From IMG/VR virus record IMGVR_UViG_3300043436_003246, positions 1-24,627 of that record: DNA of 24,627 nt. One strand, given 5' to 3'. Of this stretch, positions 6,864-23,674 are shown piece after piece. Under the pieces are notes generated by a model, which saw nothing but the letters and a program-made list of their open reading frames with translations, was not told the origin of the DNA and made no database searches. The translations under genes and the position numbers were made by a program. Every line of letters starts with the position of its first letter. The first letter of the stretch is position 1. This DNA comes from a virus.

Positions 6864-8996
6864 TTATGCGATTATTTCAATACCATAATACGTGTAATTT
6901 TTAGTTAAATTACTTGGATTGTATATATATGGAGTAATATACAAATCTTGGGTAATATCTAAAGTAGAGCCATAATCATCAATATTACCTGTTTTTTCAA
7001 GTACATTAATTGATGCTGTTGGAGTAGCGTATAATATAGATTCAAAAGTTCCAGAGTTAGAAAACCCTTGAAAATATAATAAAAATCCCACAGATTCATT
7101 AAATGATGTTAATGACGAGCTGTTTGATATTTTTAATTTTAATGAAATTTGATTATTTGGAGCTGTTGTACCTGCACAATAAACAGTGTATTTAATTTTT
7201 AATATTTGACCGTAAATCAATGATCCCGCAGGAATTACGTATTGATTTAGAGGTTCATTAGAAATTCCAGCAACAGATCCACTGGTAAATTCAATACTTG
7301 TTTGCTGATAAATTACACTTCCAGGAGTTCCGGGCTCACCTTGTGGACCTGTTTCTCCGATAGGGCCTTGTGGGCCAATAGGACCTTGTGGGCCTTCGGG
7401 ACCTGTAGCTCCATCAACGCCAGCAGGACCTATAGGACCTTGACTACCTGGAGCACCTGCATTAGCCAATGCAATCCAATTGCCAGTATCAAATGGAGGT
7501 GGAGTATTTGAAGTTAATGGGCCATTTATACAAACATAAGACGTCATAGTTCCATTTGCATCATCAAGAACAACATCATAAGTTTGATATGTAACATCTA
7601 AATCCCAATAACCTTCCCAGGTTAATCCGGCAGGAACGGCAGGGCCCATTGGGCCTTCAGGACCTTGCGGACCTGTTGCTCCTGTCTCTCCATTCTCTCC
7701 AGCTGAACCAGCAGGACCTTCAGGACCTTGTGGGCCAACAGGACCTTCAGGACCAACGATTGAAGGTATTGCTTCAACTTGAGCTAACAGCTCTAAATAT
7801 GAGTTGTATAAATCTTCAAAGGCAGGAGTTCCTGTTTGAGATGCATTATCAATCCATTGTGGATTAGTTGTGTTTCCGCAGCAGTTACAATCACACTCAG
7901 TACCACTTGCGCTTAACAACTCAACCATTTGATTGTAGTAGCTTTCGTATTCAGCTTGATTACCACATGCTTGTGCCTCCTTTGCTAGAGGGTAAAGAAG
8001 CGCAATACCTTCTGCGTATTTAGTGTATGGACTTGTGCTTCCGCAATTTAAAGCATCCATATGCTTTGTATAAAGAGCTTGAACACAATCATTTAAATTG
8101 CATAAGGTTCCAACACACGTCACTACAAATTCAGTAGATGAATTTAAACTAACTGATAGTTCTAAATCATCATCTTGAGTCTTTGTTAATGTAGCGGCTA
8201 CGGATTTAGTCCATGTACCTGTAGCTAATTCCGTTAATGTTAAAATATATAAACCTGTAGATTGAGGGTTGGTCGCAGGAGCTGGATACAACCCACTAGG
8301 GTAGTATGCTGTTAAGCTGTGTGACGAAACTGTAAAATCTAAATAGTCGGTAGTATCTTCAAAAGTAATTGAACCAAACTGTGATGATTGGCAATCGTAT
8401 GTAGCTGTTACAGATGCAACAGGAAGAGTACATCCGCTATACGTGTAATCTAAATCAACCTGATCATTTCCGTTATATGTAAAGGTAGCGACACCAGCTT
8501 CTGTTGTAAGAGCTGTTGAAATAGTGATAACCGTATCTGACCCGCTATTAATTGCACTTACAACCGTTTTACTTCCATTGTTTCCTGCTCCAGATAATGA
8601 AATAAAGAATACATCACCTGCATCAAACAGGTCGGCAATATTAACTCCCGGAAGTGTTACTGTGTTTCCAACACTTGAGATGTTAATATCAGCTTGTGTA
8701 TAGTAGTATTGAGGGCTATATGTTACAGAATACGCTCCGTTTAAAATATCTCCTGATGCTACAGGTAGATTATATGGACCTGCAACATCAACACCTGTAC
8801 TGATATTAGTTGCAGGGGTAGCAGGATTTGTTATAGAAACAAAAGCAGAACCCGAAGGTCCCGTAATTGTCAAAAGTCCTTTTATAGAAACAACTGAAGG
8901 GTTTACACCTTGAGCTGAATAGGTTGTATTATCCGTTACAGTTACCGTTTTTGTGTCGATGTTGAACGATGTAACTACATTGAAATTTAGTGCCAT
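6864..8996 (-). CDS. Collagen-like head/tail fibre protein with a carbohydrate-binding-like insert
   Basis: I place the start at the ATG at 8996 ([16 protein letters not shown]; 710 residues). An in-frame ATG at 9044 would translate straight through a terminator hairpin and is unlikely. Order: a beta-rich N-terminal part (1 to about 300); a Cys-rich linker ending in CDCNCCG (about 365-371); Gly-X-Y collagen repeats (about 412-455); a module with [17 protein letters not shown] and WIALANAG (about 456-509) that resembles chitin-type CBM5/12 modules; a second Gly-X-Y block (about 510-558); and a C-terminal beta domain (about 560-710) that may be the tip. Collagen-like repeats in phages form trimeric fibre stalks. 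Inference: a surface fibre that binds host or mucosal glycans. A consensus promoter (9015-9044) and terminator separate it from the upstream head gene, so it is probably expressed independently. The product class is well supported; the ligand is not. Confidence 0.8.
7320..7765 (-). repeat. Collagen-type Gly-X-Y coding repeats in two blocks
   Basis: Two G/C-richer blocks (about 7320-7465 and 7632-7765) encode Gly-Pro-X triplets such as GPQGPEGP and [10 protein letters not shown]. At the DNA level they are degenerate 9-bp repeats, on the + strand variants of GGACCTTGTGGGCC. The 165 bp between them encode the CBM-like module. Repeats of this kind change length readily by slippage or recombination. 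Confidence 0.85.
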
Positions 8997-9014
8997 AATA
9001 CGTATACGTTTGTA

Positions 9015-9044
9015 CAAAACTAAAAAAGGCGGAGGAAAATCCAA
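9015..9044 (-). promoter_or_regulatory. Bacteroidota-type promoter for the collagen-like fibre gene
   Basis: On the minus strand a TTG (9044-9042) is followed after exactly 19 bases by TAGTTTTG (9022-9015), matching the Bacteroidota consensus TTG-N19-TAnnTTTG. The predicted start of transcription is about 9008, leaving a leader of about 12 bases before the ATG at 8996. The -33 element lies inside the terminator hairpin at 9022-9054. Confidence 0.6.
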
Positions 9045-20290: not shown

Positions 20291-20300
20291 CAAAAACAAA

Positions 20301-20322
20301 AAAGGGGGTCTAACCCCCCTTT
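20301..20322 (-). terminator. Strong rho-independent terminator after the SSB-like gene
   Basis: AAAGGGGG (20301-20308) pairs with CCCCC...TTT (20314-20322) around a five-base loop. On the minus strand the stem is followed by a long U-rich tract (the complement of 20291-20303). It ends transcription 12 bases after the SSB-like stop codon and separates that early gene from the block to its left. Confidence 0.85.
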
Positions 20323-20334
20323 CGCTCAATCAAC

Positions 20335-20676
20335 TTAAAACGGTAAATCATCATCTGATTGTACCGGGGCTGCCTTCTTCCCTCCTGTCTGTTTGGGAGC
20401 CGCTTCCTTCACCTCTATTGAGTAGACATTCAAACTAGTGTAGTACTTTTCCTTGTACTCCTTTGAACGAATGTTAAACTTTACATCAGATACATCGCCC
20501 ACAACTGGCGTCATGACGCTATCAAGTGACTTACCTCCAATTGTGAAGGCGTATGTGTCCGTGTAGGTGTTTCCACCAACTTCTCTAGAGTTCTCAAGTA
20601 CGAACTCAATAAAATCAAAATTGCCGCGAGTTTGCTTTTCTCCGACTGCTACCACTTTTCCTGTAATATTAAACAT
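20335..20676 (-). CDS. Single-stranded-DNA-binding-like protein (DUF3127 type)
   Basis: 113 residues from the ATG at 20676 (MFNITGKVVAVGEKQTRGN). An in-frame ATG at 20703 lies upstream of the predicted transcription start and is rejected. The body is an OB-fold-like beta barrel (FDFIEFVLENSREVGG, TYAFTIGGKSLDSV, VGDVSDVKFNIRSKEY, YYTSLNVYSIEV). Next comes a disordered Lys/Ala/Gly linker and the C-terminus SDDDLPF. An acidic tip ending in DLPF is the protein-docking tail of bacterial SSB and is typical of the DUF3127 family of Bacteroidota. It probably coats single-stranded DNA during phage replication and recruits partners through the tail. It has its own promoter (20693-20723) and terminator, and diverges from the replication operon. 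Confidence 0.85.
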   Translation of the reverse strand: MFNITGKVVAVGEKQTRGNFDFIEFVLENSREVGGNTYTDTYAFTIGGKSLDSVMTPVVGDVSDVKFNIRSKEYKEKYYTSLNVYSIEVKEAAPKQTGGKKAAPVQSDDDLPF

Positions 20677-20692
20677 GATATATAATTTTCCA

Positions 20693-20723
20693 CAAATATA
20701 CATGGTTGTTCTACATTTACCAA
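20693..20723 (-). promoter_or_regulatory. Bacteroidota-type promoter for the SSB-like gene
   Basis: On the minus strand TTG (20723-20721) is followed after 20 bases by TATATTTG (20700-20693). The predicted transcription start, near 20686, leaves about ten bases before the ATG at 20676. The sequence TTTTCCACA (20686-20694, plus strand), which fits the relaxed DnaA-box form TTWTNCACA, overlaps the -7 element. Confidence 0.7.
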
Positions 20724-20760: not shown

Positions 20761-20790
20761 TTGCATTCGTATTTTTTGATTGTATATTTG
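20761..20790 (+). promoter_or_regulatory. Bacteroidota-type promoter for the replication operon
   Basis: TTG (20761-20763) is followed after exactly 19 bases by TATATTTG (20783-20790). Transcription should start near 20797, giving a leader of about 113 bases before the ATG at 20910. Its -7 octamer is identical to that of the divergent SSB promoter. Confidence 0.75.
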
Positions 20791-20796
20791 CCATGT

Positions 20797-20895
20797 CGAA
20801 AGACGGTTAGAGTAGCAGCTAACGAAAAACATTATAATAGCCCTGTGATTTAGGACGTGTCTGCTACCACTCCTAAGTTACGGGGTTTATTTTTT
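20797..20895 (+). promoter_or_regulatory. Structured leader with terminator-like hairpin: candidate attenuator
   Basis: Between the promoter and the first gene of the replication operon, bases 20841-20854 pair with 20872-20885 in a continuous 14-bp stem (11 Watson-Crick and three G-U pairs, ends CCC/GGG and TAGG/CCTA). The stem is followed at once by TTTATTTTTT (20886-20895). This is a terminator in front of a gene. Upstream bases 20807-20818 (TTAGAGTAGCAG) can pair, with small bulges, with 20861-20876, which covers the loop and part of the right arm (CTGCTAC, CTCCTAA). The two structures exclude each other, as in attenuators. No ligand-binding fold is recognised. It could also release a small RNA of about 100 bases. 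Confidence 0.55.
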
Positions 20896-20909
20896 ACAAA
20901 AAGTATAAT

Positions 20910-21764
20910 ATGGAAAGCGAATCGCACTTTGGAAGGCATGCAAAAGAAAGGGAGCTAAGATACTCTAGGGTTCCAAACAATCTAATACGGAATAACAAAT
21001 TATCGTGTGAAGCTCGTGTTTTTGTTATGTGGGCGACAAGTCACGATAGTAGTTTTGTTTGGACAAGAAAGCAGGCAATGGAAGCTATGAATATTAAATC
21101 AATGACAACATTTTACAAGGTTGTTGAAGAGCTAAGCGAAGCTAAGTATCTAATCAAAATTCCTTTTATAAACTCCACAACAAGCCCGGCAAGTGAGATA
21201 TATATGATGTATAAAGCTCCGCACGATTCTGCTGAATACAAAGATTGGTATGATGACTCCGAACCTGCTTCTACTAAAAAGGTAGGGGTACCAAAAAATG
21301 ATACCCCCCTGGTACCAAATTTTGATACTACCCCGGTACCAAAAAATGGTACACTTAAGAATACTATATCTTTAGAACAACCAAAAGAGAATATTAATAA
21401 AGAAAATATAAAAAGAAAGAAGGCGGCGAATGAATTTGTTCCACCAACTGTTGATGAAGTTAAGCAGTACTTTCTTGAAAAGGGATATTCTCCTTCAAAG
21501 GGTGAGCAGGCATTTAACTACTACAACTCGAACGATTGGAAGGACAAGAACAACAAGCAGGTTATGAACTGGAAGATGAAGATGCAACTTTGGTTCAAGC
21601 CGGAGGACAAGATTGACGTTTCAAAGCTTAAATTTGAAGTCGAGAACCCGGAGCAGTATGAAGGATTTAATAAATACCGCCACTACAACGAGGATGTTCT
21701 CAAGCAGCTAGTTGATGGAGTATGGCATTATCAAACACGACCAATAGGATTTAAAAAGGGATAA
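20910..21764 (+). CDS. Replisome organiser / replication initiation protein (helix-turn-helix plus DnaT-like C-terminal domain)
   Basis: 284 residues. N-terminal winged-helix region (about 17-100): YSRVPNNLIRNNKLSCEARV, then WTRKQAMEAMNIKSMTTFYK, the plan of phage replisome organisers (lambda O-like and DnaD-like initiators). A linker (about 120-170) holds three eight-residue repeats VPKNDTPL, VPNFDTTP, VPKNGTLK, which at DNA level are iterons (21287-21352). The C-terminal domain (about 174-235) has FVPPTVDEVKQYFLEKGY, FNYYNSNDW and NWKMKMQLWF, a helical module common in Bacteroidetes replication proteins and similar in plan to DnaT/DnaD helicase-recruitment domains. Expected job: bind the origin and load the primase-helicase encoded two genes later. 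It is the first gene of the operon; stop and next start are two bases apart. Confidence 0.8.
   Translation: MESESHFGRHAKERELRYSRVPNNLIRNNKLSCEARVFVMWATSHDSSFVWTRKQAMEAMNIKSMTTFYKVVEELSEAKYLIKIPFINSTTSPASEIYMMYKAPHDSAEYKDWYDDSEPASTKKVGVPKNDTPLVPNFDTTPVPKNGTLKNTISLEQPKENINKENIKRKKAANEFVPPTVDEVKQYFLEKGYSPSKGEQAFNYYNSNDWKDKNNKQVMNWKMKMQLWFKPEDKIDVSKLKFEVENPEQYEGFNKYRHYNEDVLKQLVDGVWHYQTRPIGFKKG
21287..21352 (+). repeat. Three 24-bp-spaced iterons inside the initiator gene: candidate replication origin
   Basis: GGTACCAAAAAATGATAC (21287-21304), GGTACCAAATTTTGATAC (21311-21328) and GGTACCAAAAAATGGTAC (21335-21352) start exactly 24 bases apart. Each is an imperfect palindrome of the form GGTACCA-N4-TGRTAC. 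The six bases between them differ. The layout, with an A/T-rich block directly downstream, is that of the lambda origin inside gene O. Confidence 0.65.
21361..21420 (+). other. A/T-rich block next to the iterons: candidate DNA-unwinding element
   Basis: Only 11 of these 60 bases are G or C, by direct count, and the plus strand is strongly purine-biased (mostly A). It starts nine bases after the third iteron and encodes the disordered, Lys/Asn/Glu-rich end of the linker in the initiator protein. In iteron origins such a block is where the strands open. Confidence 0.5.
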
Positions 21765-21765
21765 T

Positions 21766-21984
21766 ATGATGACACCGAGGAATAAGGCAATACGGCTTGT
21801 TAATCAGTTTGGATTAGAGGCGGCTTTCAAAATTGCACACGAAATGACAAACACACTTGGATGGATGGCACTAATGGCCGCCACCAAAGAGATGAGTGAT
21901 GAATATAAGAACGAAAGGTTCTATTGGGATACAGTTAAAGAAATAATACAAAAGGAACGCGATGGCATCGGAAAAGATTTATAA
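21766..21984 (+). CDS. Small hypothetical protein of a type common in Bacteroidetes phages
   Basis: 72 residues. It begins PRNKAIRLVNQFGLEAAFKI and ends with the helix FYWDTVKEIIQKE. I recall many small Bacteroidetes phage proteins with the same plan: an N-terminal 'p--kAi-Lv--f' helix and a C-terminal 'FW--Vk-eI-k'. Function is unknown and nothing suggests an enzyme. It starts two bases after the initiator stop and its last 23 bases overlap the primase-helicase start, so it is translated as part of the replication operon. Confidence 0.65.
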   Translation: MMTPRNKAIRLVNQFGLEAAFKIAHEMTNTLGWMALMAATKEMSDEYKNERFYWDTVKEIIQKERDGIGKDL

Positions 21985-23674
21985 CCTAGAAAATAGAAAG
22001 ACATACATCATCAACGCAGAAAGACGTGGTGAGAACAGCATGTCCTGCCCTGTATGCTCTGGCGACAGGAAGAAGAAGAATGTTAAGTGCATGAGCTTCA
22101 ACACGATAGAAGGTGTTGGTCATTGCAACCACTGCAACGCACGCTTTGTACGCAAGGTTGAGGATCAGGAGATTCAGAGATATACGCGTCCTGTACCTAC
22201 ATCCAACCCAACCTCTCTTCCCGATAAGATTGTTAACTGGTTCAAGGAGCGTGGAATCAATTCATCTACGCTAATTGACTTCAATGTGGAAGCTGGAAGG
22301 ATGTTCTTCCCCCAAGTTGCGCAGGAGAGGAACTGCATTATGTTTAACTACTACCGCGATGGAGAGTTAATCAACATCAAGTACCGAGATGCTGAGAAGA
22401 ACTTTCGACTTGTCAAGGATGCGGAACTGATATTCTATAATTTAGATAGCATTAGTCAAGATTTTGTTGTCATTACGGAAGGGGAACTAGACGCGATGGC
22501 CTATCATCAGGTTGGAATAACATCAGTTGTGTCCGTTCCTAATGGAGCTTCAAAGAATAATAGACTGCAGTATGTCGACAACTGCATTGACCGATTTGAG
22601 GATGTAAAGACAATCTACCTTGCAACAGACGATGACGAACCCGGCCGTGTGCTTCAAGAGGAGCTTGCTAGACGCTTCGGAAAGGACAGGTGTAGGAAGA
22701 TATCATTCTTCGGGAAAAAGGACGCTAATGAGCTTCTAATGACGGATCCGTTAATGCTTCCTGAAACATTGGAAGCCGCTGAAGAATATCCGTTAGAGGG
22801 AATCGTAACTATAGACGGCATAGCAGACGACATTTGGAGATTAAGACGTGAAGGTTTAAAGCCAGGATGCGACATATCAATTGATGCGTTTAATGAACTG
22901 CTAACCTTTGTTCCTGGATATGTTACAGGAGTTACAGGAATACCTAACCACGGTAAGTCGGAATTCCTAGATCAGATAATGGTTGATCTTTCAGTTAGAC
23001 ACGGATGGAGGTTTGGAATCTTCTCGCCTGAGAACTACCCACTTCAGCTCCACTTCTCGAAGGTGGCTAGCAAACTAGTAGGAACGGCGTTTAACGATAT
23101 GGGGGACCGAGAAATCATAGCCGCCATGAACTACTGCCGTGATAACTTCTTCTACATAGCCCCTGAGGAGGATAATAGTTTGGACAGCATAATTGAACAT
23201 GCCAAGAGTCTAGTTAAGAAGTATGGGATAAACGCAATCATCATCGATGCGTGGAACAAGCTTGACCACACCTATCAGACGTCGGAAACCCAACATATAT
23301 CCAAGGAGCTAGATAAGTTAATCAGCTTCTGCCGAAAGTATAGCGTACACGCCTTCGTGGTGGCCCACCCTACCAAGATGTCGCGTGACCCAAAGACGCA
23401 GCAGTACAATGTAGCTACCCTATACGATATGGCTGGGTCCGCCCACTTCTACAACAAGTGCGACAATGGTATATCGGTATACAGACACTTCTTCGAGGAT
23501 GGTGGTTCAATGCCCGAAATCTTTGTGCAAAAGGTAAAGTTCAAACATTGGGGACGTCAGGGCAGTCGCGAGATGCAGTATGATGTTCCGAGCGGTAGAT
23601 ATTATATAGTTGGAAAACTTAACAAAACTTCCTATCTTAGCACGGAATTTAAACAAGAGGAATTTGAGCTATGA
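21962..23674 (+). CDS. Bifunctional DNA primase-helicase (T7 gp4 / Twinkle type)
   Basis: 570 residues, the usual length for a T7 gp4-type protein. Zinc ribbon: CPVC (29-32) and CNHC (55-58). Toprim primase core: ITEGELDAM (171-179) with catalytic Glu173, and ATDDDEPG (221-228) with the metal-binding Asp residues, followed by KKDANELL. RecA-like hexameric helicase domain (about 290-560): Walker A GIPNHGKS (326-333), Walker B AIIIDAWN (425-432) and VVAHPTKM (466-473). It unwinds the fork and makes primers, so the phage needs no host primase for its lagging strand. It overlaps the small gene upstream by 23 bases and the next gene by four (ATGA). All key catalytic residues are intact. A Met at residue 27 would remove the upstream overlap but cut close to the zinc ribbon. 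Confidence 0.95.
   Translation: MASEKIYNLENRKTYIINAERRGENSMSCPVCSGDRKKKNVKCMSFNTIEGVGHCNHCNARFVRKVEDQEIQRYTRPVPTSNPTSLPDKIVNWFKERGINSSTLIDFNVEAGRMFFPQVAQERNCIMFNYYRDGELINIKYRDAEKNFRLVKDAELIFYNLDSISQDFVVITEGELDAMAYHQVGITSVVSVPNGASKNNRLQYVDNCIDRFEDVKTIYLATDDDEPGRVLQEELARRFGKDRCRKISFFGKKDANELLMTDPLMLPETLEAAEEYPLEGIVTIDGIADDIWRLRREGLKPGCDISIDAFNELLTFVPGYVTGVTGIPNHGKSEFLDQIMVDLSVRHGWRFGIFSPENYPLQLHFSKVASKLVGTAFNDMGDREIIAAMNYCRDNFFYIAPEEDNSLDSIIEHAKSLVKKYGINAIIIDAWNKLDHTYQTSETQHISKELDKLISFCRKYSVHAFVVAHPTKMSRDPKTQQYNVATLYDMAGSAHFYNKCDNGISVYRHFFEDGGSMPEIFVQKVKFKHWGRQGSREMQYDVPSGRYYIVGKLNKTSYLSTEFKQEEFEL

Follow-up and report, generated by a model that had tools for sequence, protein, structure and literature searches.

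How are the replication genes of a phage expressed when the promoter visible for them is followed, ahead of the first start codon, by a hairpin that looks like a transcription terminator? This question is raised by IMGVR_UViG_3300043436_003246, a 24.6-kb virus fragment that we analyzed over its whole length of 24,627 nt (the window). Structural genes and ssb, the divergent neighbor of the leader (20335..20676, minus strand), are read leftward, and a replication operon is read rightward from 20910, in the order putative replication initiator (20910..21764, plus strand), small gene and TOPRIM primase/helicase (21962..23674, plus strand). The putative initiator remained without a match in a Pfam search and gave DNA-binding or unknown-function matches in PHROG, and its C-terminus matches the “replication protein” of Flavobacterium phages. 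As the nearest annotated relatives of the terminase and of this C-terminal part are mostly Flavobacterium and Cellulophaga phages, we infer a flavobacterium-like member of the Bacteroidota as the host. One leftward gene (6864-9044, minus strand) encodes a long phage protein, probably a fibre or adhesin, in which collagen-like repeats of the form GxxGPxG occur.

A scan for Bacteroidota-type promoters identified the -7 box TATATTTG (consensus TAnnTTTG) at 20783..20790 on the plus strand and, 19 nt before it, the TTG of a -33 element at 20761..20763, which is kept in relatives. The consensus promoter of the original prediction therefore exists as a good match, but it is of the Bacteroidota type and absent from the list of a sigma-70 scan. 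In a flavobacterial start-site map the -7-type box occupies -12 to -5 (PMC9723704), and on this basis the transcript start is predicted at G20795, the first G of a 5' hairpin. The spacing from box to first G is 3-5 nt, mostly 4, in the distant relatives described below as set B. An ATG is located at the predicted start, but neither frame nor length of a leader peptide is conserved and this candidate was discarded. For the divergent ssb gene a promoter of the same type, TATATTTG, lies at 20693-20700 on the minus strand and leaves a very short 5' leader, and the gene is followed at 20299-20323 (minus strand) by the strong terminator GGGGGG-TTAGA-CCCCC with a T-run, which has the top terminator score in the window.

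The predicted leader RNA is built from three hairpins on the plus strand. The 5' hairpin GUC-GAAA-GAC (GUCGAAAGAC, 20795..20804) has three pairs and a GNRA loop, and hairpin H1 (20806..20823) consists of the stem GUUAG/CUAAC (20806-20810/20819-20823) and the 8-nt loop A-GUAGCAG (AGUAGCAG). An A/U-rich linker of 15 nt (20824..20838) leads to hairpin H2 (20839..20887), the putative terminator. The 14-bp stem proposed earlier for 20841-20854 and 20872-20885 is present and extends to a main stem of 17 bp (20839-20855/20871-20887), above which, beyond the bulged C20856, three further pairs (20857-20859/20868-20870) close the 8-nt loop UCUGCUAC (20860-20867). The TTTATTTTTT expected after the stem was confirmed, ending 14 bases before the ATG at 20910. 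It belongs to the U-tract region UUUAUUUUUU (20887..20896), whose first U is able to pair at the base of the H2 stem and which places the predicted RNA 3' end at about 20892-20896. RNA folding of the hairpin region gave -32.6 kcal/mol compared with a shuffled mean of -20.3 (z -3.65), and 0 of 200 shuffles were as good. Terminator scores were positive, although that of H2 in the window is so by no more than a modest margin (5.7). Nevertheless, the stable hairpin directly followed by a U-rich tract that characterizes an intrinsic terminator is present, with a U-tract kept in all three sets of relatives (A, B and C), and it is situated in the leader between promoter and gene, as in an attenuator.

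The segment GUAGCAG of the H1 loop (20812-20818) is perfectly complementary over 7 bp to CUGCUAC in the H2 loop (20861-20867), where it engages seven of the eight terminator-loop bases, all but the first. This kissing contact is possible with the stems of H1 and H2 both intact. An upstream segment competing with the terminator had been proposed, and the pairing is real, but it is mainly a loop-loop contact compatible with the finished terminator; the right-arm bases thought to pair with 20807-20818 add only a weaker extension to a core that is confined to the loop. Mutual exclusion of two folds holds up only in part: the nested fold that excludes the terminator reaches -21.6 kcal/mol compared with -34.7, a cost of 13 kcal/mol, whereas nascent RNAs with their 3' end at 20869-20872 fold best in this way. 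According to these calculations, competition with the terminator stem is possible only as a transient during transcription. A rough estimate of the reach in the close relatives (set A, linker 14-15 nt) suggests that the linker is just long enough across the stacked helices, with 87 Å needed and 94-101 Å available when fully stretched.

Set A comprises 11 other virus contigs with the leader, in which conservation extends from the -7 box through the U-tract and ends abruptly thereafter, the first nine bases of the U-tract being invariant. Four different kinds of gene directly follow the U-tract in this set. A comparison of the window with the relative L015 illustrates how selective the conservation is: 76 of 79 positions agree in the three hairpins and 10 of 15 in the linker, but only 44% of the four-fold sites of the primase. 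In the set as a whole the linker keeps its length while its sequence drifts. In an alignment of 10 sequences all pairs are kept in all sequences, and double-sided changes affect three of them, two H1 pairs and one kissing pair. This covariation rests on two haplotypes, perhaps spread by recombination. L014 and L015 are identical for about 1 kb before the leader, differ at 11 positions within it, and the next gene is replaced.

A second set consists of distant relatives. A scan for the promoter together with the 5' hairpin led to L109/L129 (scored by the set A model R1 at a rough E-value of 2.5e-6), and its relatives plus a pattern of the apical part led to 32 virus contigs with 26 distinct leaders (set B). 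The stems differ in sequence from those of set A and the order of elements is identical: the 5' GNRA hairpin and H1 come first, the linker connects them to a long hairpin whose apical stem has 3 bp and whose loop has 8 nt, and the U-tract comes last. Across 24 aligned leaders 99.5% of the cells are paired, and ten pairs show double changes, a number reached by none of 500 shuffles (mean 6.2). The covariation score is 0.258, compared with 0.107 for shuffled and at most 0.070 for slid alignments, and the 5' hairpin itself shows a compensatory change from GUC/GAC to GCC/GGC. The kissing helix is perfect in 24 of 24 leaders across four alleles, two of which are shared with set A, indicating that this complementarity is under selection. 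Predicted energies of the contact are -9.1 to -10.6 kcal/mol for matched alleles, -3.5 kcal/mol for the two main set B alleles when mismatched, and -6.4 and -8.4 kcal/mol for mismatches between the window allele and its sister. Conversely, a model built solely from set B recovers the window (E 6.6e-7) and set C (6e-5 to 6.5e-4), all E-values being rough. A lack of stem-pairing conservation among relatives had been set beforehand as grounds for refuting the hairpin, and the pairing holds in more than 30 distinct sequences.

A longer version of the leader is found in the six contigs of set C, namely L098 (identical in L106 and L123), L119, L125 and L130. Here the H1 loop carries UUGGAACC or UGGAACC, with the complement within the terminator hairpin. 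In addition, the linker contacts an inner loop of that hairpin through four different sequences that are complementary each time. This second pseudoknot (GGTAA/TTACC, GAGAAAA/TTTTCTC, AAGGTAA/TTACCTT, AGAGTTA/TAACTCT) is the faster-changing one. An AGUA/GAA internal loop common to sets B and C looks like a bulged-G module.

Other loci share only parts of this architecture. In a different phage group (L101, L102, L103, L113, L120, L121, L124 and L127) the same promoter and GUCGAAAGAC/GGC 5' hairpin precede a long hairpin of the AACCCTC...GGGTTTATC type, and in L101 and L103 this hairpin is situated just after a terminase-like gene and before TTAAACGCAGTAGGG-type repeats. As no kissing pair was evident in L101-L103 and their kin or in L097, L099, L100 and their kin, these loci with the same 5' hairpin were left out. 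A looser kissing pattern in viral contigs gave L034, L037-L039, L041, L043, L045, L095 and L096, which looked like chance. In the sister primase clade L019-L027 the operon starts about 40 nt after TAnnTTTG without a structured leader; judged from this clade, the leader is dispensable for such phages, and L019-L027 offer a natural comparison for its role.

Searches of databases did not link the leader to any described RNA. No Rfam family reached its threshold in the window or in the set B loci L158 and L160-L162, the only weak sub-threshold match being a microRNA hairpin model that we attribute to chance. Nucleotide similarity searches yielded nothing useful for the window or a set B leader among annotated phages and plasmids, nor for a set C leader among annotated phages. 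A 16-nt core pattern gave 46 scattered matches in GTDB contigs, judged to be chance. In about 790 genomes the promoter plus 5'-hairpin pattern had 7 matches, as many as the reversed control (7), and none with the architecture; model R3 found no match in 149 genomes. These genome searches were on a small scale and had no positive control. Our searches of the open-access literature yielded no description of such a leader in Bacteroidota phages. Taken together, the leader RNAs look like a structured family, so far undescribed, that belongs to phages of Bacteroidota-type hosts, and like a new RNA family whose job is probably of a known kind. A ligand-sensing leader, which had also been considered, finds no support in view of the missing Rfam match and because an obvious conserved unpaired ligand-like core is not apparent.

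What follows the leader is less constant than the leader itself. In those contigs whose downstream genes were traced, the first few of them make up a replication module that usually begins just past the U-tract and is sometimes preceded by one small uncharacterised gene. The module types are many and unrelated and include an O-like initiator with Phg_2220_C, DUF6291 proteins and several winged-helix-like initiators, followed by DnaB helicase, a VirE-like primase or a TOPRIM primase-helicase; proteins without a Pfam match were named by position and by reading of the sequence, and some of the virus contigs may be incomplete. The comparison shows that initiator genes are exchanged among phages behind a constant RNA.

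We consider it somewhat more probable than not that the leader is an attenuator: an RNA of about 100 nt would be released whenever the polymerase does not read on into the replication operon, and the kissing loops would tune or address this choice. Transcription would start at about 20795 from the Bacteroidota-type promoter, and the transcript would fold into the 5' GNRA hairpin, H1, the linker and the terminator hairpin H2, with the 7-bp kissing contact between the H1 and H2 loops. Most transcripts would stop at the U-tract and be released as the ~100-nt RNA, and those reading through would express the initiator and the primase/helicase. So little sequence separates the U-tract from the first start codon that another promoter would not fit there, and the sole visible promoter of the operon is located upstream of the terminator, so that the replication genes should depend on read-through, and for this reason attenuation is favored. 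Promoter, fold, U-tract and position thus lend plausibility to the attenuation and the released ~100-base RNA of the original prediction; from them we infer actual termination, RNA accumulation and regulated read-through, and likewise a role of the kissing contact, in cis or in trans. Most likely this contact would set termination efficiency, either inside a single nascent RNA or by pairing of a released molecule with a nascent one. Covariation by itself is no proof of an effect of kissing on termination, and a purely cis structure could likewise yield it. Pairing of released with nascent RNA would provide a feedback on replication that depends on dose and is specific to the allele. Feedback in trans, or exclusion specific to an allele, is worth testing because very similar phages carry different alleles (L014/L015, and L166/L184, which the tree shows to have identical helicases). 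We give a small but real chance to an RNA-coded specificity cassette for immunity or copy control, in which the released RNA would kiss leaders of the same allele on other genomes present in the cell, raise termination before the replication genes of these genomes, and thereby limit replication and exclude co-infecting phages of that allele; the exchange of alleles between these otherwise very similar phages would fit it.

The same features can be read differently. Its own promoter and terminator, strong conservation and independence of the identity of the next gene would also suit a free-standing trans-acting small RNA, with the ~100-nt RNA as main product, acting on RNAs of phage or host or on a protein of the host, and the operon living on leaky read-through. 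A possible target is at hand in the ssb mRNA: CTGCTACCACT, part of the loop and right arm of the terminator, is found again at 20646-20656 (plus strand) inside ssb, antisense to codons near the start, which gives an 11-nt complement. This complement does not track the loop allele in relatives, and we dismissed ssb regulation by base pairing as probably a coincidence or coding constraint; moreover, the RNA is always found directly before replication genes and not elsewhere, so that this reading is rather doubtful. It is unlikely that H2 serves as an RNase III site or controls ribosome access in a leader for processing, stability or translation, the U-tract being merely a U-rich start region. 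The long near-perfect stem, a start codon mostly 15-25 nt from it and a 5'-terminal hairpin that could protect the mRNA are compatible with this idea. In most set B leaders the start codon comes 9-14 nt after the measured right arm, but in L165, L167, L169, L174 and L180 it is 22-37 nt away and the U-tract still adjoins the hairpin; therefore, the U-tract is part of the terminator and not of the start codon region.

Two further readings have far less in their favor. The put RNA of phage HK022 is a promoter-proximal structured leader that suppresses termination and works in cis whatever genes follow. The position and the independence of the downstream gene seen here resemble such an element, which would modify RNA polymerase for antitermination downstream, but put is not itself a terminator and the present RNA ends in a terminator-like U-tract that a polymerase-modifying element does not need, which makes this very improbable. 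Hardly credible is an element acting as DNA, a replication origin or cruciform, for which only the location in the divergent ssb/initiator gap speaks, where origins can occur. H2 of set A retains G-U pairs, which alternate with G-C and U-A, and as G and U pair only in the RNA of this strand they indicate an RNA of the plus strand. Furthermore, the window leader folds with -34.7 kcal/mol on the plus and -24.5 kcal/mol on the minus strand, and the spacing from promoter box to first G is kept.

The attenuator reading has parallels in known systems. The P4 CI RNA comes from the leader of a replication operon, pairs within the same leader and promotes premature termination ahead of the replication genes (PMC4825925). 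The present RNA is like P4 CI RNA and c4 in originating from such a leader and pairing with sequences of that leader. However, P4 CI RNA arises by processing of a longer leader and has seqA and seqC as its pairing partners, whereas here both partners are hairpin loops of one compact RNA and one of them is the loop of the terminator itself; the covariance model of the c4 antisense RNA (RF01695) was not matched in the window or in L158 and L160-L162. Attenuators of the pT181 type likewise have a terminator in the leader of a rep gene, with specificity set by a kissing hairpin loop and stem (PMC3753616). Their antisense RNA is transcribed from the opposite strand, whereas both partners are located on one strand here, and the TAnnTTTG-type scan found no minus-strand box from 20700 to the right end of the window. 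In the pT181 type an upstream leader segment pairs with an arm of the terminator and so prevents termination; the upstream segment here pairs with the terminator loop and not chiefly with an arm. For IsrK of prophage Gifsy-1, one promoter gives rise to a short terminated RNA and a read-through mRNA, the latter being the target of the former (PMC4825925). A single promoter for a short RNA and a read-through mRNA is also predicted here, but what IsrK affects is the translation of an antiterminator operon in Salmonella. Flavo-1 and other Rfam motifs are also structured RNAs of Bacteroidota, for none of which a threshold was reached in the window or in the set B loci.

The Bacteroidota phages are an abundant and little-studied group of viruses. 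Plasmids and the P4/c4-type elements of Proteobacteria are well-known cases of replication genes controlled by RNA. The strong covariation, the predictable start and end, and natural alleles changed at both loops provide ready-made compensatory-mutant and allele-swap tests, and the leader marks replication modules in unannotated virus contigs. With its two loops changed in concert, the leader recurs in about fifty other virus contigs ahead of replication genes that are unrelated to one another, and it looks like a portable switch for starting viral replication.
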